A stretch of 64,000 bases of DNA, from assembly GCA_030141605.1 (NCBI GenBank), contig JAQGDQ010000033.1, positions 62,001 to 126,000 of the forward strand. The letters are read 5' to 3'. A program made the translations under genes and the position numbers. The notes below the pieces were generated by a model. It saw only the letters and a list, made by a program, of their open reading frames with translations, ran no database searches and was not told the DNA's origin. Each line of letters opens with the position of its first letter. The stretch's first letter is position 1. Shown one piece after another: positions 5,101 to 64,000 of this stretch. Source of the DNA: Tubiluchus corallicola. Taxonomy: Eukaryota > Priapulida > Priapulimorpha > Priapulimorphida > Tubiluchidae.

Positions 5101-7720
5101 GAACGTGAAATTGTGTTTGTGCGGCAATAATTATTTCACGTAAGTCATTTTTGAAAAAATAGTCTGTTTCTTTTCAATATTTTAAAGAGTAGATTGTTTT
5201 GACCTACAGTTTAAGATTGGGTCCGGTTTTGCTTTAAGTGAAGGTAATGCCCTCTTTACTTTTTCTATTAGAAAAAAATGGGGAGAACTTCTTTACTGCA
5301 TTCGGTAATGCCTATGTAAATAATTCATTATAATTGCAAATATCTATCATCTCTGTGTAAATTTTATTCTGAATATATTTTTGTATGTATGAATCTAGAG
5401 TTTACAATAAAGAATTTTAATTTTTAAAAATGATGATTTAAAAATCAAATCAAATCTCCTCTCCTCCAGTGTAATTTTTTCTTTATTCCATGTTACTTTC
5501 GCAACATTTTTGCAGCATTATGCAGTGCTTTTGAGCTGTACATTTGCTATGGTGAATTTATCAAAAAACAATCATCAATGTTATATAATTATAGTATAGC
5601 TTAATGAGTTTTTTAAATTTTAGCAGCAAAATCGTGCTCGCATTTTTCGTGAATGGCAAAATTGGGGCCTGTGTGTCTCAAACAATTTAAAAGTTGTGTT
5701 TATGGTATTTTATTCATTAAACAATCATTCTCTCATTATCAAATAAACATTTTAATTTCCCCATCCCACCGGCCTTTACTGTTTATAATTGATTACATTC
5801 ATTGCTGTTCGCTTGCAAGAACATCCCAGATGTATTGCTCTTATAATTATAATAATAAAGTGCTGTAATTACACAGACTGAATATAATAATTTTCGTCCC
5901 GAAGATGCTCAGAGACGAAGGGCATCATGGTGAGGTTGGTATATAAATGAATAAGTGCGTATTTCAGTTTTGATTCCTCAAGGGTACTAGCAAGCAATTA
6001 GTGCCAGGATTTGTTTGCGTTGAGGTCTTCTTAACCAGCTTTTATGCTAGCTCCCAGGACGGTTTAGTAACGTCAGTCATCCAACTCCATTTAGCATTAT
6101 GTTACGAGTCTATGTGTAGCCGTCATGCAGGCTGTTAGTCCATCTATGCTAAATTCATTTAAACTCATGTAGTTGAATGAAACCTATGGCCTGTCAGGCA
6201 AATCAGAATATCCATAGAGATGATATATCGTAGGTTTAGCCGCAGATTTGGTTTTAAAGTACCACAGCATAACAAAATTCTTTCAAAACAATTTCTTATA
6301 ATATTTCAATAATATATCGTTAAATTTATTTTAAATTAATACTCGTTAATTATGCATTCATCAGTTTAACTATTGAACAGTACACCGCATACGCGTTGAG
6401 AGTTCCCTATAAGTTTAATTGTAGAGCCACAAAAAATAATTCTAGGGGCTTAATGTAGGTTAGTGTAACACTAAATTGAGTTTAAGATTCATGTATCAAA
6501 ATTCAGCAACAACAATATTGCCAACGTCAACGGCAACGGCAACGACAATGATAACGACAATGTAACATTTTGCAACACTGCAGTAAAACTTATAAGTGGC
6601 CATGCATGAAGTTCAATTAAAACTTGTACCTACATGTGCTGACTAAAACCGAATCTTAATTTAGTTTAGTTTAAACATACGTTATTTGGTTCAGATTAGA
6701 CAGTTTTTAAAACTGATACATGAATTCTCACCGCACCAGTGTATAAACAGGCAGACGTGCTTATAAGATAAAGTAATATAAATACAAACAAACACACATA
6801 CATACAAATATATACAAACAAAGCCGTATACATACAAAGTTAGCAGACGTGACACAATGAATAATATAACAATTGAATAATAACAATAACTGTCTTAGAA
6901 TTTACCGTCAATACACATAAAGGAACCTAAGGTCTGAGTACGTTAAAAAGTTTAATTCTCCTAATGTAATTTTGAACACAATAAAAAAAATTACAGTTAA
7001 CATAAACATTAAAAGCATATACACTAATATACAATGACAGCAGTTCGCCATTGTTATATTGCAAACTATTAATATTTAAAGGCAATACTGTCACAATTAT
7101 AATATTCGTATTCTATCAAATGGGTCAAATTTGTTAGTGGATGAGTTTTCAAGCTATAAATAGTTTGAATTAAGTTAATTATGAATTTAACACAATCTCG
7201 AATTTAATGTTATAATTTGTCTAATTAGTTTCAGTCATTATTGTGCACTTATTGAATAATAATCGTGCACCTAGCTTATATGTTCTTTTCCGCTTTCTAG
7301 TTACATAAGCTTAGCAATACTAAGTATTATAATTTTGTTTAGAAAGCTAATTATTATTTTGTTTTTGAACACGAAATTCCTTTTTCTTCCCATTTAAGCT
7401 TAAATTCTGTCCCTCCCGCAACAGTTTTTCTGCAAAACTTGTTTTCTCATATTTAAGTCCCTTATTGCGTATTGCCTGCTAACAGGGCAATTACTTCACA
7501 AGAACATTTCTCTGCCAAATTATTTTCCCAATTATCGCCTGAAAATAGTTCATTATAAGAAAAGTCAGAACGCATCTGTTATCACTCGCTTGTTGTACGC
7601 ATGCGCAACAATGAAATGAAGGCCTTCTTAAGCCAAAACATCGCTCGGACTGGTAAATTCCTGTCCGTTTGTAATTGGAGTTATTAATCTGATTTGCTGA
7701 AAAAATTAATAATAATAATG

Positions 7721-7783
<63 letters not shown>

Positions 7784-7899
7784 CGGCTGCTCAGAAAAAA
7801 ATTGCTGGTTCGAACTCACACGATCCGCAGTTACTAAGTGTAAGCAGCTCAGATTTTGTATCTTTGTAAATAAATAAATAAATAAATAATAATAATAAC

Positions 7900-7993
<94 letters not shown>

Positions 7994-10900
7994 GTTAACA
8001 TATAGGACGAATTGCAATTACTATGCATTATCAAGTCGTTTTATACTCATTGTATAAAAAATAAACAATCTGAGGTTACATATTGGGAAATGTCATTATG
8101 CGTCCTAAAAATGAAGTCTAGAAATTGTAACATTTGAATGACCGTGTTTACTATTAAGACTTAAGTTATTTCGTAAGAGCTAATCGGTGTTGTTTTTAAA
8201 AGACATCACTAGCCTAGGCATAACCTTCATAACCGATCTTTTTAAGACAAAGAACCGATGCGCAACTTTGTTTATTAAATTCGAACGCCACGCATGAAAA
8301 CAGAGAGTGATGTTTTACAGTTGATGGCACTATAAAGCTGTGATAGTTAAACCATCTAGGTAATCCAGACGAACAACAAAACCTTTAACCCAAGATATAT
8401 CTGCAATGTGGTCTACACTTTATAATATCGACTATAGTATGTAACAGCTACTCATATAACTCTTGATGGAAGATGGAACGCTTAAGACGACAGATCCCAA
8501 TGGATGCACGAGCTTGGTGGTGGCATAGTCGGGACATTCATAATGGCATATTTGCAAATGAATCAATTTCCTATAAGCCGTACACAGTTGATGCATTTTA
8601 GATCAAACCATAGCGAGAAGAGCCGAGATGCTGAGCGATAATGAAAAGTGACAGTTAGTCTAATAAGTGCATCGAAGCGCCGCGAGACGGTTGCACACTG
8701 CTAAAAGCTCATCAACAAGCAAGCTTTTACGATACTAAACTTTTCGTACAAGGAGTTTATGCAAAACTCGGAATGTGTACATATATACAAAAAGTGATGT
8801 GACAATTTGCAATAACTTACGCTTAATGCCTTATGTGCATTATATCCATCATACGTAATAAATATTTTAATTTCAAGATTGTAAGTTAACCGCTTACATG
8901 ATCCTACACATAGAAAATAATTCTACAGCTAACGATTTTATTTTCTAAATCAAACTTGGTTAAAAACTGAAAAAAATTAAACTAATGTTGAGTTTCAATG
9001 AGACCTTTTAATTACAAATAGCCTAAACAACATGCTAGAATGTCTTAATTTTGTCTTAATATCTCAGTAGTACATCCCATAGTTCCACACTTTTAAGTGA
9101 TTTATTAAATCCTGGTTCAAGTCCTGGTTCACTTCTAATTCCAGTCCTTTCAACTTTCTTTTCTTTCAACAAATTTGGTTTCCAGTATTAAAAAAATAAC
9201 TGTGTACTCGCATGATTATAGTAATCGTCATTTCTGCAACTGAGATTACGCGCAATCAATTTAATTAATTACAAACCGATTATTCCAGGTTACAAATTTA
9301 CAAAGTTAATTTCGTTAGCGAATACTCCAGAGCAAGTAAACTAATGCTTGAAAACGCTAGATGACTTCTTATGCTTTTGGTATAGAATTAGTACGTACCT
9401 TGATTGCAATAGACCATGTGGTCTGATAATAAAGATCTTGGGTTTATAAATGAAAGGCCTTAACTGAAATCCACTCAAAAATTTAAACTGTTTACGATTT
9501 TAAAAACATGTTTGGGTTTATCAATTTTGCATATTGTAGTCATAACAAGCCGTTCATGGTTATCTCTGTTATTGATTTTGTCTAATTAATGAATATTTTT
9601 CTGCATTATTATCCTTGCAAATAAGTTAAAACTTAAAATTTTATCTCTTTTTCTAAATAGAAACTTACATATGTCTGAAATATGTGCATCGCGCGTAAAC
9701 ATTTTTTGTAAATAGACCGTGCCTACCGATAATGGCGGAGCACGCGTCATGTTTTGTGTTTGTCACAAAATAATGTGGTAATAATATCATGTCCTGTTGG
9801 CAGATTTCACCACCTCTAACAGACGATTAGCACTACAAATTGCTAGTAGTTATTATTTCCACTAGACTGCCTCTAATTGTTTTTCACAAAGACGCACTGA
9901 CGAGCCGAGAGACTGGACTTGAACAAATCTGTGGGAAATCACATCAATTATTCATAGAGAGATTAGTGCAAGTTCGGATCGAATTCCCAGACAAGGGAAT
10001 AAGTTGGTTTTAATGCGCTTCGGCTGTTCGATTTTAAGAAGCTTCGAGAATGTAGATTTAAACTTAGATAGATATTAATATATTACATAGTGGCAATGCG
10101 GGAAAAGATCCGCAACGAATGGCAATTTTTGAAGAAAGACGCAGGTACACACTAAAAAGTCCTAACATCAGAAAACCATATAAACTTTGCAGCGTCAGTA
10201 AATTACCAGTATTACAAAAAATGTGTTTTATACAGACACTGCGATATTTTTGCCCACATGAACTTTGGTCTTGCTTTTTACACTTTTGTCTTTTTGATTT
10301 GCGCGCCTTAAATTTTACTGATATAGTTTTTTTATTTTGCATCAATTTTCATTTGTGGTTAAAATGTATTTTGCAAAGCACATAGAGTTCAGTATTTCAC
10401 AAATTTATTTACTATAACTTAATGAAATGTCACCCTCAGTTTCAGCTTACAGGTTCTAATGATTTTAGCGCATCTAAATGAATTAGTTCAGCAAAAGCCC
10501 AATCATTTTCTGCTGTTGTAATAAGGGTCATCCAATCTAAACGTAAAGAGAAATGCGAATATTCGTGAATGGAAAACGTATGTTATTCTGTATAGTTATT
10601 CTGCAATTAGACTGGATATCGATATTTTTCATAAAAAAGTAACATAACGGAGATTGACTTTCTCTTCCTTGATCTTCGTATTTTATGCCACACACAGCAA
10701 TTTTGTACTGTTATAATATTCGCCGTGTTTTTGTCGTCGTGCACACGACTGCTCAAAACTTGGCTTCTTTGTTGCAGCATAAAAACCCCAGGACGGCTTG
10801 CCAGCGGAATTTCAAGTCTCATCTAGTGGGAGAGGGAGTCCGCCAGAATTCAAATGATGCGGTGCAGAGTCGCCGAAACGATTGTACATTTTCATTAATT

Positions 10901-13900: not shown

Positions 13901-16900
13901 TAAACCGTCCGCGTGTTATATAATAAACAGGTTAAACTGTTCAGTTCATGCGAATTCTATGACGAGGCTTTCTTGTAATTTAAAACCAGATTGTGAGCAA
14001 TTTTCTGTCACTACTTATTTATCAGAAATACATGTCTTACATATATGGAGTTGCTGCGCCTAATATTGCTATGGAAGGTAATATCATGTAGTGAAATTGT
14101 ATTAAAAACCGTTTAATGTTGAATGATTTTATCAACTTGAGTTACAAAAATGAACATGTTACGTATTCATTACACTTTGCGAAAAAGCTCAAGTTTTGAT
14201 AAACTTAAAAATAAAATTCATAACATAGATTATTCTTCTTTTACAATGAGGAGGTTCTGAGCCTTGGCAAATATGTCAAAATATGCTTAATATAACAGTG
14301 GAATAACACAACATTAAAGAACAATTTCAGTCCGGACTCACCGGCTGATATTATTCTTTATTTCACTGCAAAGAAAAATTATAAGTACTTAGAATCACAT
14401 TTTATTTTTGTTCGACAGATTATTGACTTTACTTATAGATACTTTACCGCAAATCTGCGGTACTACAAAATAATTTATTGTTTGTAGAGTCTAAAGTGTT
14501 GTGCATACTTTTTGGGCTAAACATGCCCGTTCCACTAATATAAGCGTGTGCGTTACATGAGCGAAGTCTTGTGAAGTGAAGCGGTTATTGATATTGATCT
14601 TTTCATTAAAATTAATTTTATTAATATTTTAAAATAAAAAAGCAATATTAATTACTTCAGTTTTGTACAACGACAAAAGTTTTTACGTTCATATTACGTC
14701 AGATTTATTTTTAATATGCGTATAAGAAAATTTTCATGACTTTGCGCAATTTGCAAATGTTTCGTTATACACTGTAGTTATAAGTAGAATGAAATAAGAA
14801 AATCTTTTGAGATCATTGAAAAAATCAAATGTATATCATTACTTGTCTGCCGCTCCAACAAAGTTAAAAATTCTTTTCGACATAGAACAGATGGCATAAA
14901 TTATCTGTCCTTTTCGTTTTTCCATTCAGGGTTTTCCTCAAGCAGATTTGCTTCACAAATAATATTATTACTTACAATTGTCATATCAACGAGTCAAGCG
15001 CGGGTACATAATTGGTACAATTGTCCAATTGAATGATATATTCCATTCTTGCTAGCAAATATCCAACATTTGGCTCTGTATTTCAAACATGTAATTTTCA
15101 CTGCGGTAGGGGAATGCAGCCCCAACGCCCACATAATTGTGAAATGAAGCTCCACCCTTACACTTGTCACTCGATGACGCAACGCAGCTGTTCAAGATTT
15201 TATTCTTTTATAAATCTGACAAAGCCGAGATTTACGGGGTCTCACAAGGTCTATTTTAAGTTGCAAATGTTACAATTTGATAGCGGATAATATAGACTTT
15301 ATAGTAGTACTACAAATAAACCAATTACTGTAAATAATTTTTGAAATTTAGCTCCCGTTTACACCTACAAAGCATGATAAAAGACGTTAATTAGGATGTA
15401 AAAACATCATAGTAATAATTAACTTAATTTCCTGATTTGCGAACATTTTATTGTGAAGTTTCATCATCGTTGTTACAGTAGTGTAGTCATCGTTTTTATA
15501 GTACTTAGTGTTAGTCATGTACTAGTTGTGTTAGCTAGTGTTTCAAGTGTTGTAAACAACGATGTTAAACAAATAAGAGTTCTACTACTACTGCTACTAG
15601 AACTACTACCACTATGGCTACGTCCTAGTCAGGGTTTATCAGTGAGTTTATCAGTATAAGTGCGAGATAAATTTCAAAATTTATTTACAGTCATTGACAT
15701 TTATTTGTAGTACTATTATAAAGACACTATAGTATTAGACAGTATCAAATTGTAACAGTTAAACACCTGTTCACCTAATTGTACTTAAGTAATTAAGTGA
15801 ATATCTATAAGATTCTGCTCTTTTCGACATTTTCCTCATCGGAAGACCATCACGCTCCCTTGTGATTTTGAGAGTGGTGAAATGCCCTTTATTAATGCGT
15901 TTACTAGAGAACAGTTTTAAAATTCCTTAACATAAAACAGCTTCCTGTTAATGTTTATTCCCAAAATGTGTTGCTTTATTACTGCTGTTTTAAATATATT
16001 AAGTTTACTGAAACCAAAATAAATTATGCACAAACAGTGCAAGAGGAATGGCCGAGTGGTGCCCAGTTACCAAAGTTAGGCAACGCCAAACCTAGTCAGA
16101 AAGTGGACGGATAAATGGTTACTAATTAACTTGGTGTCAACTGTAATAGTTGCTAGAATGTCTGTTGACTCGTATTTTATCTCACATAGAGAATGTACAT
16201 ATTGTGCTTATCACACAAGCGTTCCTCCAGGCTCAGTGCCACTTTATCAGACCATTAGAAAAAAAACTAAGGCAAGCTGCCTAAAGTCTATTTCTATGTC
16301 GATGTCGATGTCTATGTCTATGGTTATATCTAAATCCATTTCTACCTTTATATCTAGTTGTCTGTCTATGTCTATGTTTATATCTGTACCTATTTCTATA
16401 TTTATGTCAATGCCCATGTCTAATATTAAGGATAACTAAGTCTATACCTTCTACATTTACCTGTATTCTGGCTTCATTTAGCTTTGTCGTCCGAGCTAAC
16501 TCTTCGCGACAATAAATATCTGGATAATGACTTTTGGAGAATGCTGATTCCAGTTCCTGTAACTGTTCCTGTGTGAATGTGGTCCTGTGTCTCCTTCTGG
16601 CCGGAGTAGGGCAGGAACTCGAAGGCGCACTCGTTATTGAATTGGCTGTCGAAATGCTGTTCTCTTGTTTCAATTTTTTAAAAGCGCCCTCTGCAAAAAT
16701 TTATAAAAATAATATAGCAACATAATACAACTAGCACTTGAAATTTTATGATCTCTTAAAATTTAATAATGTTGTTAGTTGCTCAAAAACAGTGAATGAC
16801 TAAATACATTATTATAGCAAGATAATTATAGTGACTATTGTTCCTTTCCTGATTTGTTTCTTTCTGTTTTTGAAAATGCTTACAGTTTTTCTGCTTAATT

Positions 16901-37105: not shown

Positions 37106-37342
37106 TAAAAAAATTTTGAAGTAGAAACTTATTTAGAAAATGTTAAGAATATTAAAGACAGAAAGGCTTTGACAAAATTTAGAACTAGTGCTCATCGTTT
37201 GGTTGCTGAAACTGGTAGATATGAAAGACCACCTATTCCACGTGAAAATCGAGTTTGTGGTGTCTGCAATGTTGTTGAAGATGAATGCCATTTTTTTTGT
37301 TATACTTCTCAAGACATAATGTTGCACGTAACTTTATGTTGA
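37106..37342 (+). pseudogene. 3' end of a non-LTR retrotransposon ORF
   Basis: An open frame to TGA at 37340-37342 encodes a LINE C-terminal region: TKFRTSAHRLVAETGRY, then RPPIPRENRVCGVC and VEDECHFF. This C-x2-C ... H pattern typically follows the reverse transcriptase in such elements. The 5' part is missing. AATAAATCTATC and a CCTA microsatellite follow, as expected for a 5'-truncated insertion with a simple-repeat tail. Confidence 0.7.
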
Positions 37343-38559: not shown

Positions 38560-38702
38560 GATCATGTTATCGTATGAAAATTCAACATGGTAGTCGCGGG
38601 ACATGCGCAGAATCTACTACACGTGTATGTAAACTGCCTTGGTCGAACAAAACGGCTTCTATATTATGCACGTATCTGCAATATTGTTGTGGCAAAAATA
38701 AG
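38560..38702 (+). promoter_or_regulatory. Candidate promoter and noncoding first exon of the EF-hand gene
   Basis: CpG-containing sequence with an NRF1-like CATGCGCA (38602-38609) ends in a strong donor, AAG/GTAAGTTG (exon end 38702). The next coding exon has an acceptor (TTTTATTTCAG) three bases before its ATG, so an upstream noncoding exon is required and this is the best candidate. Its 5' limit is unknown. Confidence 0.45.
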
Positions 38703-40013
38703 GTAAGTTGGAATTTATTACTCAAATTATTCGCGTGACATTAGTACAGTTGCTACATACATATATTAGGCTAAGAAATGGTATTACAGCACGCCTTCGA
38801 ATTTTTGATACTGTTATTCACACCTTTAATTCACCTATTATCGTGGTTTTCATTATTTTGTAATGTGTTTATGACAAGGTTAAAATTAACAGACCATCTA
38901 ATTTTGTTTAAAAATGTATTCTAACTATTATTTTATTTTCTCTTATGAACTTCACCTTGTAAACTTGAATAACATGTGTAAATGCTAAAAATGATTATGG
39001 CTTCACACCGTATGTTTTGATTTTGAGATGTTTTATATAAACATGAATACCACCTAACACTCGGTTTTCACCTACGATAATGTTTATTCTGTTTATAGAG
39101 TCATAGCAAAAAAAATCTCCTAATTATTGCAAAAAAAGCTATATTCAGTGTCTATGCTGCAAACCACAGAAATGCCATTATTGATTAAGCTTCCATCTTG
39201 CTGCAGTTGTTGTCATAGCGACGGCTGGTGAAGCAAGTGATGAACGACATCGCGGCAGCTCCAAATTTTGTCATTACAAATAGTAGTGGCAAAAAATTTA
39301 AAATTGTCACAGTGATTTTAAAGAAATAATTGTGTGTTTTTTCCACAAAATATAAATACAAAAGAAGTAGGAATAATTTACTGACCGGTTGTGCTTTTTG
39401 TCAACATATCAATTGCCCCTGAACATTTAATTGTTAAAAAGAACAAGATATAATTTTTTTATGCAGTTGAAAATATTAAAAACTGTCCGTTTTGGTGTCT
39501 TATTATAGTGGCCATCAAGAATTTGTTTTTGCAGCGTAAGCTCGGCAAAGTATACTATATGTACTACATTAAGTATTCAAACATTTGCTAATTCCACAGC
39601 TGTTTAATTCCCATAAAATATGACGCAGTAAGTGCATTTGTGTATAATTTAGGCTAAAACAAATATAAAGGCTATAATAAATAAAATTAATGTCATGCAG
39701 CAGTTGTTATACAGGCATATGGTAAGCCTTTTTTTAATAGATTACGCATAGTAATAGCAATATAGGGGTGAAACTTTACGCAGGGTTTTCAATTTTCAAC
39801 TGAAAAGAAATGTTTAAGCTATTACAATCACAAAAACATTTAAATTTCTGTTGTTCAAGTACTGATATCGTGAGGATTCTCGCGTTTTCTCTGCGGTTAC
39901 TTTCTCATTCTATCTTTAAAGAATCCGGTGTTACTTAGTCCTACGATTTTCACGAGGCCTTCCCTGGTTTATAGCTTGTCTAAATTTGTCAATTTAATGA
40001 TTTTATTTCAGAC
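38703..40013 (+). other. Presumed intron 1 of the EF-hand gene
   Basis: Runs from the candidate donor at 38703 to the acceptor just before 40012. AT-rich, nothing recognised. Confidence 0.45.
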
Positions 40014-40168
40014 ATGGATAGGATTACCTGGGCAAATGTTTGTAGCTTTTACGTAATATTGATACTGGCTACCTTATCGTCTTGTCACAGCCCAAAGCAA
40101 TCTCAAGAAGGTCTTAGGGGATCGCATACCAACAAATTTCGAGATAAGGAATTCGTCCAAGATCAAGA
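40014..40168 (+). CDS. MCFD2: EF-hand gene, signal-peptide exon
   Basis: The ATG lies three bases after an acceptor (ATTTCAG/AC ATG). It encodes residues 1-51 plus two bases: a short polar N-terminus, a hydrophobic stretch, SSCHS as a likely signal-peptidase region, then a charged linker ending FVQDQE. Donor GA/GTAAGCA. Confidence 0.8.
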
Positions 40169-43100
40169 GTAAGCAACTACAACGATGTTAATGCGACAGT
40201 ATGATATTATACAACTTGTTACCCGATATCGACAGAAAGCAATGCTACACACGTTTCTTTTTTTTGGTATCAACCTCCCGGGAGCGCCTGAATTCACTGA
40301 GTTTTGACACCAAAAGCACAAGAAATCACTGTCCTTCCCCCTCCGTAATAACGTTTCTATATAGCATTAATAAGTAATGGCCAAAAGGACGTTACTAAAA
40401 AGCATGATTAAAGGCAATAACAACAACAACAACAATAATAATAATAATAACAACAACAACAATAACTTCAACAGACAACGTCATAAAGCTTTTATCACCG
40501 ACTGTAAATAACAAACTACAAATACATAACATGATTATTATTACCCCACTTTTATCCTAAATACCACGCGCCAGACAGGGCAACAGCTGGTACCACTTTT
40601 AGTCTCTGGTATAACTCGCCCGCAGTATCGAACTCATGACCTCAAAAGGTGGAACACGGATGCGTTACCACTAGATTATACCTGTCTAGTTAAAAGCACA
40701 AAAGGAGGCTATTCTACACGTACAAATCTTTTAACCGCTTGAGAATTATAAGGCAGGCGTCCGCCAATATTCAAAGGATTTTGTTTTTTCTTCTTCAAAA
40801 TTTATCTGTATATAACTTTGCAACCTTTACCAGATTTTTTATTGACAAAGTCAAGCTGACATTGTCCAAAGAGCTAATAAGTGAACCACGATCAATATGC
40901 AATAATTATTAGCAAATTATGTATGCTAAATTGTATTAAAACGACTGTTATCGTTTGCGTGAAAGTGGCATTTAATAACAAAACATATTAAAAACTTTTC
41001 ATTTATTGGTGCGATATTTGTGTCACTCATTACTAGGAACTTCCTTGATTCTACCAGAAGCTTTGAAGACTCATTTTAAAATTTTATTTAAAGCTACATC
41101 TGTACGGTGTGCATCTTGCATATCCTTCAAAACTTGCGCGGTTACAGTATCACCACAGTTTGATGTCGTCCTTAACAAAGTCGTCCAAAAAATTATACTC
41201 ACATACGGTTAGGTTAAAACTTTATTTATTATCTGCAGGCATGTAAAAGAACATTTGAAAGATTTTGCAAGCATAGATGAAAAGGACATGACGCCTGAAC
41301 AACTGGAGTTTCACTATTTTAAGTAAGTTGCCAGATAGATGACGATATATGATTATAAGTTCAAGCTAGATTTCGATTTTCTCCTAAAATATGTTTAATT
41401 TAATAACATAAAATTTCGATTGCTTTACCTCTTATCACGTCTAGGCATTCAAGTGACTAGAAAAAATTTAAATGTCAGGGCGTAAAGCAACTGCTGTGTT
41501 TTTATTATTCAAAACTTCTTTTATCTTCAATACTACCTAACACTGTCAGCTAGACATGGTTACCGAATTTCTTTTTGTAGATATACACTACTGTTAAATA
41601 TATGGAAACTAAGTGACGCTTTGAAGAGTGATTTTAAAATTTTAAAACATGTACGCACTTTTCCGCAGTTTGTATTCTGCAGTAATACAGAGAGTGCTAT
41701 CTATTAAGCACTAAGTTAAACTTTCCGCGCTGAAGCTTGCCAATCACGTATGCAGTGACTGTGCATAAAATAATAATATACAATATTTAATAATATTTAT
41801 TTATTTATTATTATTATTAGTTAAAATATTAACAGGCTGCACGACTTTGATAATAACACGAAGCTAGACGGTTTGGAAATCTTAGCAGCACTGACGCACG
41901 CGCTCCCATATGACGAGTTGGAAAATGAAATAGACCCCGAGAAGCGGGCAAAGAATGCCCAAGAACGGCTCAATATTTACACAGGTTTGTCATAACCGTG
42001 ACGTAGCGTTTTCATTTTGTTTCTCACCTGTAGAATCAATATTTTTCCGAAAATAGTTACTGGCACATAAACGTTTAGAAAACACACCTTATTAATATCT
42101 GACAATTAATTTTGTTGCACCTGCGAAATACATTATTTTACTTTCTTGCAACAGTGTTAATATCCAAAATAATCACTAACAGCCTTTAACTCTATTATAC
42201 TTCAAAAACAGCAAGTAAATAAGCAAGATAAGGAAATAAAACCCAATTGTAATATTTATACATCGACATCGAAAAGTGCAAAAATTATTTTTACTCAAAT
42301 CCCTTTCGTATGTATTATTTCGATGATTTTTTTATTCTTTCTTCGAATTTTCAACATGCACTTTTGCTCTACCAACTTTACGAGAAAACAAGCGAAAAGT
42401 GGCAATAGTAAACAGGCTCAAGCCTGGCCCTCAAAATACCGAGTAGCAAACCCGGAAAGCAAAATCCGGGATTTTGTCTTCTTCTGGTGCTGCTGCTCTA
42501 AGCTTCTATTGGCTGAACCTCTATTCTTTATTATAGAGCACTCCACTAGCTGCTTCCTCTCTGAAGCTAAAGTTTTGTAATTTTGTATTTTCTAGTTTTG
42601 CATCAACGTAGAAACATTTTAAATATTTCTTTTCGTACGTTAGCAAAATTCTCCTATATGAAGTTTGAAGATGTTTGATTTTGAAAAATTATTTTATTTT
42701 GATTTAAATTTATTTCAAGCCAGAGGCTCATGTCGACAAAACGATAAAATCTTAAAAATTTACAGAATATACAATTAAAACTAAAACCTAAAATAAAATA
42801 CACATTAAAGTAACGAGATTAGTTTAAAGCAAAGTTACTAAATTTTGACTATGCCGAAATTTCCGCCTTGCAGAGGCGTATTCCTCTGATATATATATTC
42901 ATCTGTTATAGGAGATGCAACGATTAATTCAGTCTTATGCATGTACAGGTTGGGTAGATGCAATTCTTGAGCAAGACGATATAGACCGCGATGGCATGCT
43001 TAATTACGTAGAGTATGTCACAACCAGACGCAGACTGAATGTACTAAAAGATTAAATGAAACGGGTATAACTGTAAATTCATGGCAAACGTTGCAGCTAT

Positions 43101-44623
43101 CCATGGCTAATTTCTGCACAGGTGGTGGGAAAATATCGTTTCATGTTACTAATACTGGCGGTGCACTAACATTATGTAGCAATATCTGATAACATGAATG
43201 TTCAGCGTTCACTCTGCCCACATTGTTTCATATAAATTGCTCTCACGAATGTCTCTATTAGTAAAGGCTGGACATGAGATAAAGCGTATTAAACTATAAT
43301 TATGGTGGCAATATGTTGTGTGGCATCTTTAGTTTTATGTACAAAGTAATGTGAAGCTTCAGATTTGAAGGTTTGGGGCGTTGTGAATGGTGATGATGCC
43401 TAGCAGACTTTAGGTGGCTAATAAAACAGAATTTATAACTTTGTAGCTTTATATTTATCTCTATACATATGTACAGATAAATAGTAGTTTGTGATAGCAT
43501 GTGTGCAGTCTAGGGTTGCCAACCTGCCATGAACCAAAGTAAAGAGCTAGGGCGCCTGCAAGCTCCCCCAGAGGGCCTGGAAACCAAACATTTCCTGCAT
43601 TTTATGGGGTCTTTTACAGAAACTAAAATCAAGAAATTCAAACTAGAAGCTAGTACAAATTCTTGATTTTAGACTCCAAAAAGCCCTAACAGTCTAAAAC
43701 TCACAAAAGTGCCCATCAATTTTTGGAATTTCTTCCCAATCACATTTTTTATGTTTTCTGATTTTTCTGAGATTGATTTAGTAACCAAATTATTAAGCAC
43801 TTTATGTCATATAAATTAAAGCTAAAGCTGAAAAATAACTTTGCATAATTTGCCGCTACAGCAAAAATTGGCGAAAAATGTAGACGGGGTGAAATGATGA
43901 AGCCATGCAACTAATTAAACTTAATTTACTAAGTTTCCTGTTATACCTTAGTTAACACAAACTCCGTTGTTTTTGGCTTAACCTTTTGCAAAGTTACAAT
44001 AGTATACAAGTCGTATTTCCACTTTCTTCCACTTAAATTTCAATGGAATTGGTGGCAACCCTACTTCAGTCGCTTTCATACGCTTTGTTATCTTATGTGC
44101 CTTCTAGACTTTCAAAATAATTTCATATCTCTGAATTTAGATATATATTAAAATGTTGTTTTGAGCAGTAATTTGAAGTATAGTTTATACGATGTGCCTC
44201 AGTGAGACGACTTATTAACATAAGCCGCAATAGTTACTAGCGATAAACCTGATATTTACTGAACAGGCCAACTTTTATTGAGAATTAACAATGGAAGTAT
44301 TAATGAATATTCTACCAGTACATTACCTTATTTAAGGAATATTCTGCCAGTACATTATATTATTTGTTTTTTAGTTTTATAATAATATTAATGAACAACA
44401 ATCCTATACGTATAGGCAACTATATTGCCCAGCCAGGACTGTAAAAATTTGTTAAATTACAATAAAATTATTATTTTAATTGACAGATCTCATCGACAAA
44501 GTGTTAGAAGAAGATGACTACGATGGTGACGGGTACCTAACGTATTTGGAATATGTATTAGCCAGACGACGTGAGGAAGCAGAGGAACAAAGAAATGAGA
44601 AGAAAAAATCTATGGGGAGGTAA
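40014..44623 (+). CDS. MCFD2: MCFD2/CGREF1-like secreted EF-hand protein with alternative last exons
   Basis: Small calcium-binding protein of the secretory pathway. Shared coding exons are 40014-40168, 41239-41322 and 41836-41984. The last exon is either 42949-43055 (164 residues) or 44487-44623 (174 residues). Residues 1 to about 25 are a signal peptide with the hydrophobic core FYVILILATL. HVKEHLKDF and MTPEQLEFHYFK lead into EF-hand loop 1 at 83-94 (DFDNNTKLDGLE). Loop 2 spans 140-151 in either isoform. HYFKLHDFD and LDGLE match MCFD2, the cargo-receptor partner of LMAN1 in ER export, and CGREF1 almost equally. Human MCFD2 is 146 residues. All junctions are GT-AG and phase-consistent. No KDEL-type ER-retention tail is seen. 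Family certain; orthology open. Confidence 0.85.
40415..40466. repeat. (AAC)n/(AAT)n microsatellite
   Basis: AAC units, then AAT units, then AAC units again. Confidence 0.9.
40625..40678 (-). repeat. tRNA-derived SINE head
   Basis: On the minus strand TAATCTAGTGG (40678-40668) is a one-mismatch A box followed by TAACGCATCCG. GAGTTCGATAC (40635-40625) is B-box-like and lies 32 nt on. It is a different sequence type from the 34-35 kb copies and could be a tRNA pseudogene, but the stems do not pair well. Confidence 0.5.
41239..41322 (+). CDS. MCFD2: EF-hand gene, helix exon
   Basis: An 84-nt exon, phase 2 at both ends. It encodes HVKEHLKDF ... MTPEQLEFHYF, the helical lead-in to EF-hand 1 that is diagnostic for MCFD2/CGREF1. 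Acceptor ATCTGCAG, donor AA/GTAAGT. Confidence 0.88.
41836..41984 (+). CDS. MCFD2: EF-hand gene, first EF-hand exon
   Basis: Begins by completing Lys80, then LHDFDNNTKLDGLEIL with Asp at loop positions 1, 3 and 9 and Glu at 12, all compatible with calcium binding. A charged linker (EKRAKNAQERLNIYT) follows. Donor ACAG/GTTTGT leaves one base, the phase accepted by both last exons. Confidence 0.88.
41985..42948 (+). other. Intron before alternative last exon A
   Basis: GT-AG intron, 964 nt. It contains a short hairpin-forming stretch (cccggaaagcaaaatccggg, near 42451-42470) and no recognised element. Confidence 0.8.
42949..43055 (+). CDS. MCFD2: EF-hand gene, alternative last exon A
   Basis: Acceptor ATGTACAG. 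It encodes WVDAILEQ and EF-hand loop 2 DIDRDGMLNYVE, then TTRRRLNVLKD and TAA (43053-43055). With Asp at 1, 3 and 5 and Glu at 12, the loop looks functional. A polyadenylation signal AATAAA lies at 43420-43425, inside a MITE-like element. Confidence 0.8.
43511..44063. mobile_element. MITE-like element between the two alternative last exons
   Basis: Inverted ends TAGGGTTGCCAACC (left) and GGTGGCAACCCTA (right), flanked by or including TA at 43511-43512 and 44062-44063. No transposase is present. Inside is a perfect 13-bp inverted repeat, CTAAAATCAAGAA / TTCTTGATTTTAG (43623-43635 and 43660-43672), enclosing a smaller ACTAG/CTAGT stem. A non-autonomous DNA transposon is likely; the superfamily is not assignable. 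Confidence 0.5.
44305..44368. repeat. 33-bp tandem duplication upstream of last exon B
   Basis: gaatattctaccagtacatta at 44305 and gaatattctgccagtacatta at 44338, each followed by a TTATTT-like tail. Confidence 0.75.
44487..44623 (+). CDS. MCFD2: EF-hand gene, alternative last exon B
   Basis: Acceptor AATTGACAG, same entry phase as exon A. It encodes LIDKVLEE, loop DYDGDGYLTYLE and LARRR, then an Arg/Glu/Lys-rich tail (EEAEEQRNEKKKSMGR) before TAA (44621-44623). About 16 of 29 aligned residues match exon A, so the two arose by duplication. A variant signal ATTAAA lies near 44697. Transcript use is inferred. Confidence 0.8.
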
Positions 44624-45499
44624 CACATACGAATCTGCGTAGGTATACTGTGAAAATAGTAATATTTAAAGAAATGAATTTACATTACATTTATTAATTA
44701 AAAAATATTCAAGGGCATGGAAATGTATTGTAAAATAGTGAAAGAAACACTATGACAAAGTATGACCATGTGACAAGGACACAACGACACATGTATCTTA
44801 CTAACATGTACATGAAAGACATTTCGTATATGTTAATAAGACACATATGTATGGAAAATGGAAAGTCACTTCAATAACCAGATAACCACTGAAAAATGAT
44901 GGCTTTAGTATGATGCATCACGTTTAAGCTCACACATACGAAATTATTCAACCGACTGCCTACTTTCGACTTGGTCATGATTATATTCAATTTTGACTTA
45001 GGCAGCTCTTAATTTTGAAAATATCCAAAATATATAGTCATATCAATCCACCTGTAATATTTTATTACTAAACAATGTATTGTTATGTATGTAAGTATGT
45101 ATGTCTACTTGCCACATTCGAGTCTATTGAAGTACATAAGCTTATACATTTGTCACCATGTTCACTTGCATGTATCATTATGCAAAAGTCACATTTTTAT
45201 GCCACTTTTATTTTGTCTAATCCATCAAATTTTGGTTATACTTATTTTTAATATGCTCGATTTCCGGATGTCACACTAGATGTGCTTATTTCCCTTCTCG
45301 GTGTTCAATTTCCACATTTTCACATCAACTTCACGAAGATTTATAGTCTGTGTTTCTAATATGTAGAGAGAGAATTTATTTAAACAGGTTTTTGTAAATT
45401 TAATTCTGCAAATTTAAATGACAAAGACATAGTTTGCAGATCTTTTATATTTACCAATACATGACAATTTTTTATTTAATTATGTTTACGATGTACTTT

Positions 45500-51254: not shown

Positions 51255-62999
<11,745 letters not shown>

Positions 63000-64000
63000 C
63001 TATAAAAATTTCACGGTATACTAGGAAAGTATCATTAATATATTAATTGTACATTATAACACAGTATAATCAAAGCAGACAATATACTATTAACAGATGA
63101 TTCAAGAAAAACAGACAGAGTTCTCGAGTGGTAAACACCAACTAAAGGTATATAGCTTCTTAAAGCATAAATTAGCTGGAGTGTAGAACATAGCTAGAAC
63201 AGAAAAATGGTAATACAGTTAGGGTTGGACTTGACATGAAAAGAAAGCTTCAATTATACAATAAAGCTTACACTACATATAAACTGTAATGCAATTTTAA
63301 TTGTGAACATTCTACATAATGTAATTACTTTCTTTAAATGAATTATAAAAATTGTGTAAAGTCGATATTCCAAAATAAATAAAGTTAAAGTAAACTAAAG
63401 AGTAAATTTGTTTGTTTAAGTCAGGCTTTTTCAGCACGTTTATTAGCAACATTAATTATAAATTTGTGCGCATTCAGGTTTGCCAAATTTTTCTGAAATG
63501 CAAGAAGCGGAAGCATTTTCAAGCCTGCTTAAGACCTGGTGCAGTAATTCTCAGCATTCCTCTAGGGTGTAAATTTAACAAATTTTTTTTTCTGCCAGAA
63601 ATAGGGGCAGGCAGCAGAAACAATCTGCTTGTCCTCACACATTTTTGCTAGTCCCCATTTTCTCTAGAAAATTTTTGTATTATGTGAAAGTCACAATATC
63701 GCAATAAAATTTGCATTTGTAGGTCAGTCTGTAGATACACACGGTCTGAAACAAACTAAATAATGCCAAACCAGTTACATTTTGAATGTTAAAGCATATT
63801 GAATAGTAAAAATCAGTACTTATACACATATAACACTAATACAGGTTGATTTATAAATCATGATTGTCAAATCTTTGTTGTAAGATGCTATACTGCCAGC
63901 AGACGAATTCTACTGTAGATGCTATACATACTGCATAGCTGAGAATAAGTCATTCTATTCAGTGGCAATATAACTACATGACAGAGCTTCTAGAAAGCAA
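63000..64000. other. Upstream of the visible NO66 exons; no exon assigned
   Basis: Should be intron or 5' flank of the NO66-like gene. I find no convincing initiator exon with a donor in the needed phase. The 79-codon plus-strand frame at 63412-63651 has no recognisable domain. Confidence 0.5.

Follow-up and report, generated by a model that had tools for sequence, protein, structure and literature searches.

Tandem alternative last exons would give an MCFD2-like gene of Tubiluchus corallicola two different second EF-hands

The stretch of DNA analysed here, referred to as the window, comprises 64,000 nucleotides of the priapulid Tubiluchus corallicola (assembly GCA_030141605.1, contig JAQGDQ010000033.1, positions 62,001 to 126,000 of the forward strand). 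At positions 40014-44623 of its plus strand lies an MCFD2-like gene with four coding exons per transcript and two candidates, named exon A and exon B, for the last of them (Table 1). The donor that closes coding exon 3, CAG/GTTTGT at 41984, is common to both isoforms, and the predicted proteins have 164 amino acids (isoform A) and 174 amino acids (isoform B). The loop of the first EF-hand, DFDNNTKLDGLE, is encoded in the shared part, and each isoform is predicted to hold two EF-hand loops with canonical ligands. A previous sequence-only reading of this locus had described A and B as tandem-duplicated last exons, both entered in phase 1 from the exon ending at 41984, both closed by a stop of their own and both encoding a complete canonical loop at residues 140-151, and all of this, coordinates included, was recovered in the present analysis. 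The same reading had called both acceptors good; with 10 pyrimidines among the 16 bases counted ahead of A as well as of B, they are better described as adequate than as strong. The GC content is 0.42 in each of the two exons and 0.30-0.34 in three flanking stretches.

Table 1. Features of the MCFD2-like gene and of the element between its two candidate last exons (window coordinates; UTR, untranslated region; MITE, miniature inverted-repeat transposable element)
Feature	Coordinates	Strand	Remarks
Candidate 5' UTR intron	38703..40011	+	donor AAG/GTAAGT at 38702/38703; proposed from sequence and donor scan
Acceptor of candidate 5' UTR intron	ends 40011	+	TTTATTTCAG; two bases ahead of ATG
Coding exon 1	40014..40168	+	ATG; hydrophobic, signal-peptide-like start (by eye); ends in phase 2
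Coding exon 2	41239..41322	+	begins and ends in phase 2; carries the counterparts of His51 and His55 (MCFD2 zinc cluster)
Coding exon 3	41836..41984	+	first EF-hand; His99 equivalent; ends in phase 1
Alternative last exon A	42949..43055	+	107 nt; after ...TGTACAG; encodes second EF-hand DIDRDGMLNYVE and a short tail ended by TAA
AATAAA, possible poly(A) signal of A	43420..43425	+	weak: about one per 508 nt in the window
Inverted-terminal-repeat (MITE-like) element between A and B	43511..44063	+	ends AGGGTTGCCAAC / AGGGTTGCCACC at 43512 and 44051, near-perfect
Alternative last exon B	44487..44623	+	137 nt; after ...TTGACAG; encodes second EF-hand DYDGDGYLTYLE and a longer Arg/Glu/Lys tail ended by TAA
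ATTAAA, possible poly(A) signal of B	44697..44702	+	weak: about one per 653 nt

The resemblance to MCFD2 is apparent in comparisons with sequences of the PDB. Both isoforms align with the MCFD2 chains (2vrg, 3a4u) over residues 43 to 153/154, isoform B with an E-value of 5.2e-21 (78.6 bits) and isoform A with one of 6.7e-20 (74.9 bits). Both alignments run through the second EF-hand without a gap and stop 3-4 residues short of the chain end. The four best matches are MCFD2 for each isoform; the distinct PDB sequences matched are six for B (four MCFD2, two calmodulin) and seven for A (four MCFD2, three CIB1). CGREF1, which has a longer C-terminal region and which the sequence-only reading had named next to MCFD2, is not among the PDB matches of either isoform, no dedicated CGREF1 comparison having been made. 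Apart from the gapless second EF-hand and E-values of about 1e-20, the likeness to MCFD2 includes a QEHxxxEH segment and a first EF-hand of the form HYFKxHDxDxNxxLDGLE. The present gene differs from MCFD2 in having two alternative second EF-hands, in the longer charged tail of isoform B and in the Met that isoform A carries at the position of human Tyr135. Patient mutations of human MCFD2 include Y135N and I136T, for which no paper was found. Mutations found in patients also affect Asp122 and Asp129 of the human protein (PMC4183524, PMC9022998), and the equivalents of these residues, mapped via the PDB chain numbering, are Asp in both A and B. The zinc-binding cluster of MCFD2 has been described as formed by His51, His55, His99 and His101 (PMC10944485). 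Mapped via the PDB alignment, its equivalents are His at 51, 55 and 99, whereas the last one is Leu. Since all the positions of the cluster fall in the shared exons 2 and 3, control by zinc would not be switched by the choice of the last exon.

In tblastn searches of the window the peptides of A and B match each other at 39.3 bits, while the next best matches reach 17.7 bits with A and 18.9 bits with B as query. The best scores in 200 simulated first-order Markov windows of equal composition were 21.2 (A) and 21.9 (B) bits, a slightly uneven comparison in that word size 2 was set for the real window and the default for the simulated ones. A chance resemblance of the two exons was ruled out on these grounds (39.3 bits versus a simulated maximum of 21.9). 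As the sequence-only reading had it, 16 of 29 aligned residues agree, and in 14 of these 16 identical residues the codon has undergone a silent change at its third base. The differences between the exons are distributed over codon positions 1, 2 and 3 as 13, 7 and 22 of 29 codons (chi-square against an even split, p 0.017), and the Nei-Gojobori (NG86) estimates are a nonsynonymous divergence (dN) of 0.44 and a synonymous divergence (dS) that is saturated. Given this combination of saturated synonymous and moderate amino-acid divergence, A and B were probably both constrained at the protein level through most of a long history. The flanks of the two exons share 18 of 60 and 21 of 60 nucleotides, and blastn found no match between the compared A and B regions. 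Because the flanks are unrelated, the tandem duplication of the last exon is, on sequence grounds, an old one. A and B are adjacent, homologous, equal in phase and exclusive by design, as in tandem duplicated exon substitution events.

The canonical pattern of the EF-hand loop consists of positions 1, 3, 5, 6, 8 and 12, and position 9 (-X) is also a ligand position. All six canonical positions are identical between A and B (hypergeometric P 0.017). The statement that the exons differ at the non-liganding positions of the loop is imprecise, because A has Asn and B has Thr at ligand position 9. The tails are unlike: that of A has 11 residues, with four K/R and one D/E, and that of B has 21 residues, with eight K/R and five D/E. 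In the second EF-hand, 11 of 23 residues of B and 8 of 23 residues of A match MCFD2 (counted by eye from the alignments), and B is probably the more ancestral copy.

Taken as a whole, the locus is likely to reflect an old tandem exon duplication that gave rise to mutually exclusive alternative last exons and that would swap the surface of an EF-hand. Splicing from 41984 to A, together with polyadenylation ahead of B, would produce isoform A, while skipping of A and joining of 41984 to B would produce isoform B; we infer that both exons are used in vivo. The two isoforms would have in common the signal peptide, the zinc-cluster region and the first EF-hand, and would differ in the second EF-hand and the tail. 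The choice is expected to be exclusive because A carries its own stop and has no in-frame donor among the motifs scanned, namely GTRAG, GTATG and GTATA. Of these motifs, the coding part of A contains a single donor-like site, at 43013, which would be out of frame with B; a transcript in which A serves as an internal exon spliced to B was ruled out for this reason.

Proteins of the MCFD2 family bind LMAN1/ERGIC-53 in a Ca2+-dependent manner. According to published reports, the EF-hands of MCFD2 participate in its contacts with LMAN1/ERGIC-53 and with coagulation factors V and VIII (FV/FVIII) (PMC10317151, PMC10944485), so that exchanging one of them would change binding surfaces. The swap would alter the EF-hand surface that binds ERGIC-53/LMAN1 and its cargo, and not calcium binding as such. 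A switchable calcium affinity, which the sequence-only reading had offered as one outcome, turned out to be a weak proposal, given that the canonical ligands are kept, that among the side-chain ligand positions only position 9 differs and that Ca2+ in the lumen of the endoplasmic reticulum (ER) is about 0.5-1 mM (PMC13384778). At this roughly millimolar concentration a modest change in affinity would probably not matter. An altered surface for partners or cargo, in line with the partner surface that the sequence-only reading had offered as the other outcome, is judged likelier. It has also been considered that the exon choice acts as a switch of location. Isoform B, with Tyr at the position of human Tyr135, would be kept in the ER-Golgi cycle by an ERGIC-53 homologue, while isoform A, with Met at this position and no charged tail, would bind poorly and be secreted as an extracellular calcium-binding protein. 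Such a switch is conceivable because MCFD2 is reported to be secreted when LMAN1 is absent (PMC10317151), and it would mean that a single gene yields both a cargo adaptor and a secreted factor; we nevertheless regard it as improbable.

Several observations weigh against the use of both exons as exchangeable EF-hands. Neither isoform reaches the gathering score of 30 of the Pfam EF-hand models, the best scores being 23.9 and 26.0, and when the exons are taken alone A has no Pfam match and B a weak one. Single-sequence structure models of the isolated exons (mean predicted local distance difference test, pLDDT, 78.4 for B and 69.5 for A) consist mostly of one long helix and are uninformative on the EF-hand fold. 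Among the 3319 plus-strand AGs counted, 22% reach the pyrimidine level of the two acceptors, and the poly(A) motifs near A and B are weak evidence, frequent by chance. Open length alone says equally little because such frames are common by chance: among 3389 YAG sites on both strands, 355 open a phase-1 frame of at least 35 codons (the length of A) and 179 one of at least 45 codons (the length of B). Poly(A) motifs and open frame length were consequently dropped as independent support. The selection test rests on 29 codons of two sequences and is blind to a recent loss of use. This last point bears on the explanation in which B is the sole working last exon and A a formerly functional, recently disused and well-preserved relic. 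In 20,000 runs of neutral decay, in which the copy started as B and passed if it kept at least 16 identities and acquired no stop, 22% of the simulations passed at 0.25 substitutions per site, so that a short decay fits a relic A, as do its lack of a Pfam match next to the weak one of B and its less MCFD2-like second EF-hand. A longer decay does not fit, with 0.9% passing at 0.5 and 0.01% at 0.75 substitutions per site, and A is open up to its stop and has kept the canonical loop positions. A recent retirement of A is accordingly held to be unlikely, though somewhat less so than the explanations that follow.

Both exons might also be used while their proteins are equivalent, the selected trait being which 3' UTR and poly(A) site the transcript receives, as a means of controlling expression, and the EF-hand being merely kept in both. 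Ligand and core positions are indeed conserved between A and B, either exon would come with a separate 3' UTR, and the residue changes between such tandem regions have been described as mostly conservative (PMC9741552). However, the tails are unlike in length and charge and 13 of the 29 aligned residues differ, and we give little credence to equivalence of the two proteins. The reverse arrangement, with A as the working exon and B as an unused exon or the remnant of a tandem gene copy, would agree with the position of A nearest to the upstream exons and with its shorter tail, which comes nearer to the MCFD2 chains with their short C-terminus. It is B, however, that is closer to MCFD2 and that obtains the higher score. 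A search for remnants of exons 1-3 detected none, the best scores being 17.3 bits in the stretch from A to B and 18.9 bits in the 7.4 kb that follow B. This search ruled out a decayed copy of the gene in tandem, and the explanation as a whole is very improbable.

Concerning the surroundings of the gene, the near-perfect ends of the MITE-like element between A and B gave two matches in 0 of 100 shuffles, and its flanks agree at 6 of 8 bases; we presume that this element may be of the hAT type. In the window 45 protein-like frames were listed and ten of them put to Pfam, where four, namely three NO66/RIOX1-like exons and one exon with a homeodomain, scored above a curated cut-off. Their presence indicates an animal genome. 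The homeodomain exon (16440-16694, minus strand) encodes most of the domain (Pfam E 2.3e-14) and is assigned to the paired class because its nearest solved structures are Pax-3 and aristaless-like 4. The exons of the RIOX1/NO66-like ribosomal oxygenase extend over 53371-57823 of the minus strand, with JmjC_2 pieces at 57755-57823 and 56796-56894 and the RIOX1 C-terminal winged helix at 53371-53496. Two open frames have no Pfam match. One of them, at 62208-62447 on the minus strand, has 80 residues and a protein-like composition and lies near a Lys/Arg-rich frame at about 62906-63000; the other, at 37118-37285 on the plus strand, presumably resembles the end of the reverse transcriptase of a retrotransposon without long terminal repeats (non-LTR). 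Long trinucleotide runs occur at 7706-8017 (a poly-Tyr frame) and at about 40410-40465 (AAC/AAT). Neither Rfam nor a bacterial-code tRNA scan detected anything in the window. When viral contigs were scanned with exon 3, there were 34 pattern matches but no relative among them, and isoform B had no match among phage records.

The exchange of tandem homologous exons is a well-documented device. A survey of tandem duplicated exon substitutions describes 236 human events and an exchanged C-terminus in 77 of them, with the EF-hands of ACTN1/ACTN4 included and the 3' exons of tropomyosin among the examples (PMC9741552). The MCFD2-like gene resembles these events in having tandem homologous exons of which one would be used per transcript, although both exons are demonstrably used in those events and presumably so in the present gene. 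In ACTN1/ACTN4, duplicated, mutually exclusive exons exchange EF-hand residues. In the case of ACTN1, the isoforms with exon 19a are reported to bind calcium while the smooth-muscle form does not (PMC4435478). In the present gene, by contrast, the canonical ligands are kept in both versions and each exon has its own stop. Exons 37a and 37b of the P/Q-type calcium channels also lie in an EF-hand. These channels constitute a further case of exon duplication (PMC9177970), and MCFD2 occurs neither in the main text of this source nor in that of PMC9741552 (0 occurrences in each). A homologue of MCFD2 in the brown planthopper, NlSEF1, is comparable in its signal peptide and in its pair of EF-hands, and its C-terminal part is described as well conserved; an alternative last exon is not mentioned in the passage on NlSEF1 (PMC5241783). 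The sequence-only reading had known of no such arrangement for MCFD2 or CGREF1, and this agrees, without being proof, with the titles and abstract openings of open-licence PMC papers among the matches listed. Nor did titles and abstract openings of open-licence PMC papers on the fly gene CG17271, which we take to be the fly MCFD2 homologue, or on MCFD2 together with Drosophila and ERGIC-53 contain such an arrangement. The kind of system, a tandem exon swap that may include EF-hands, is already known, and no case in MCFD2 appeared among the literature matches listed. If both exons are used, splicing would exchange the binding half of a cargo-receptor adaptor, and the gene would provide a natural way to ask which residues of the second EF-hand set the choice of cargo and receptor. 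The swapping of EF-hand exons, described for cytoskeletal proteins and for channels, would then reach into the early secretory pathway as well.

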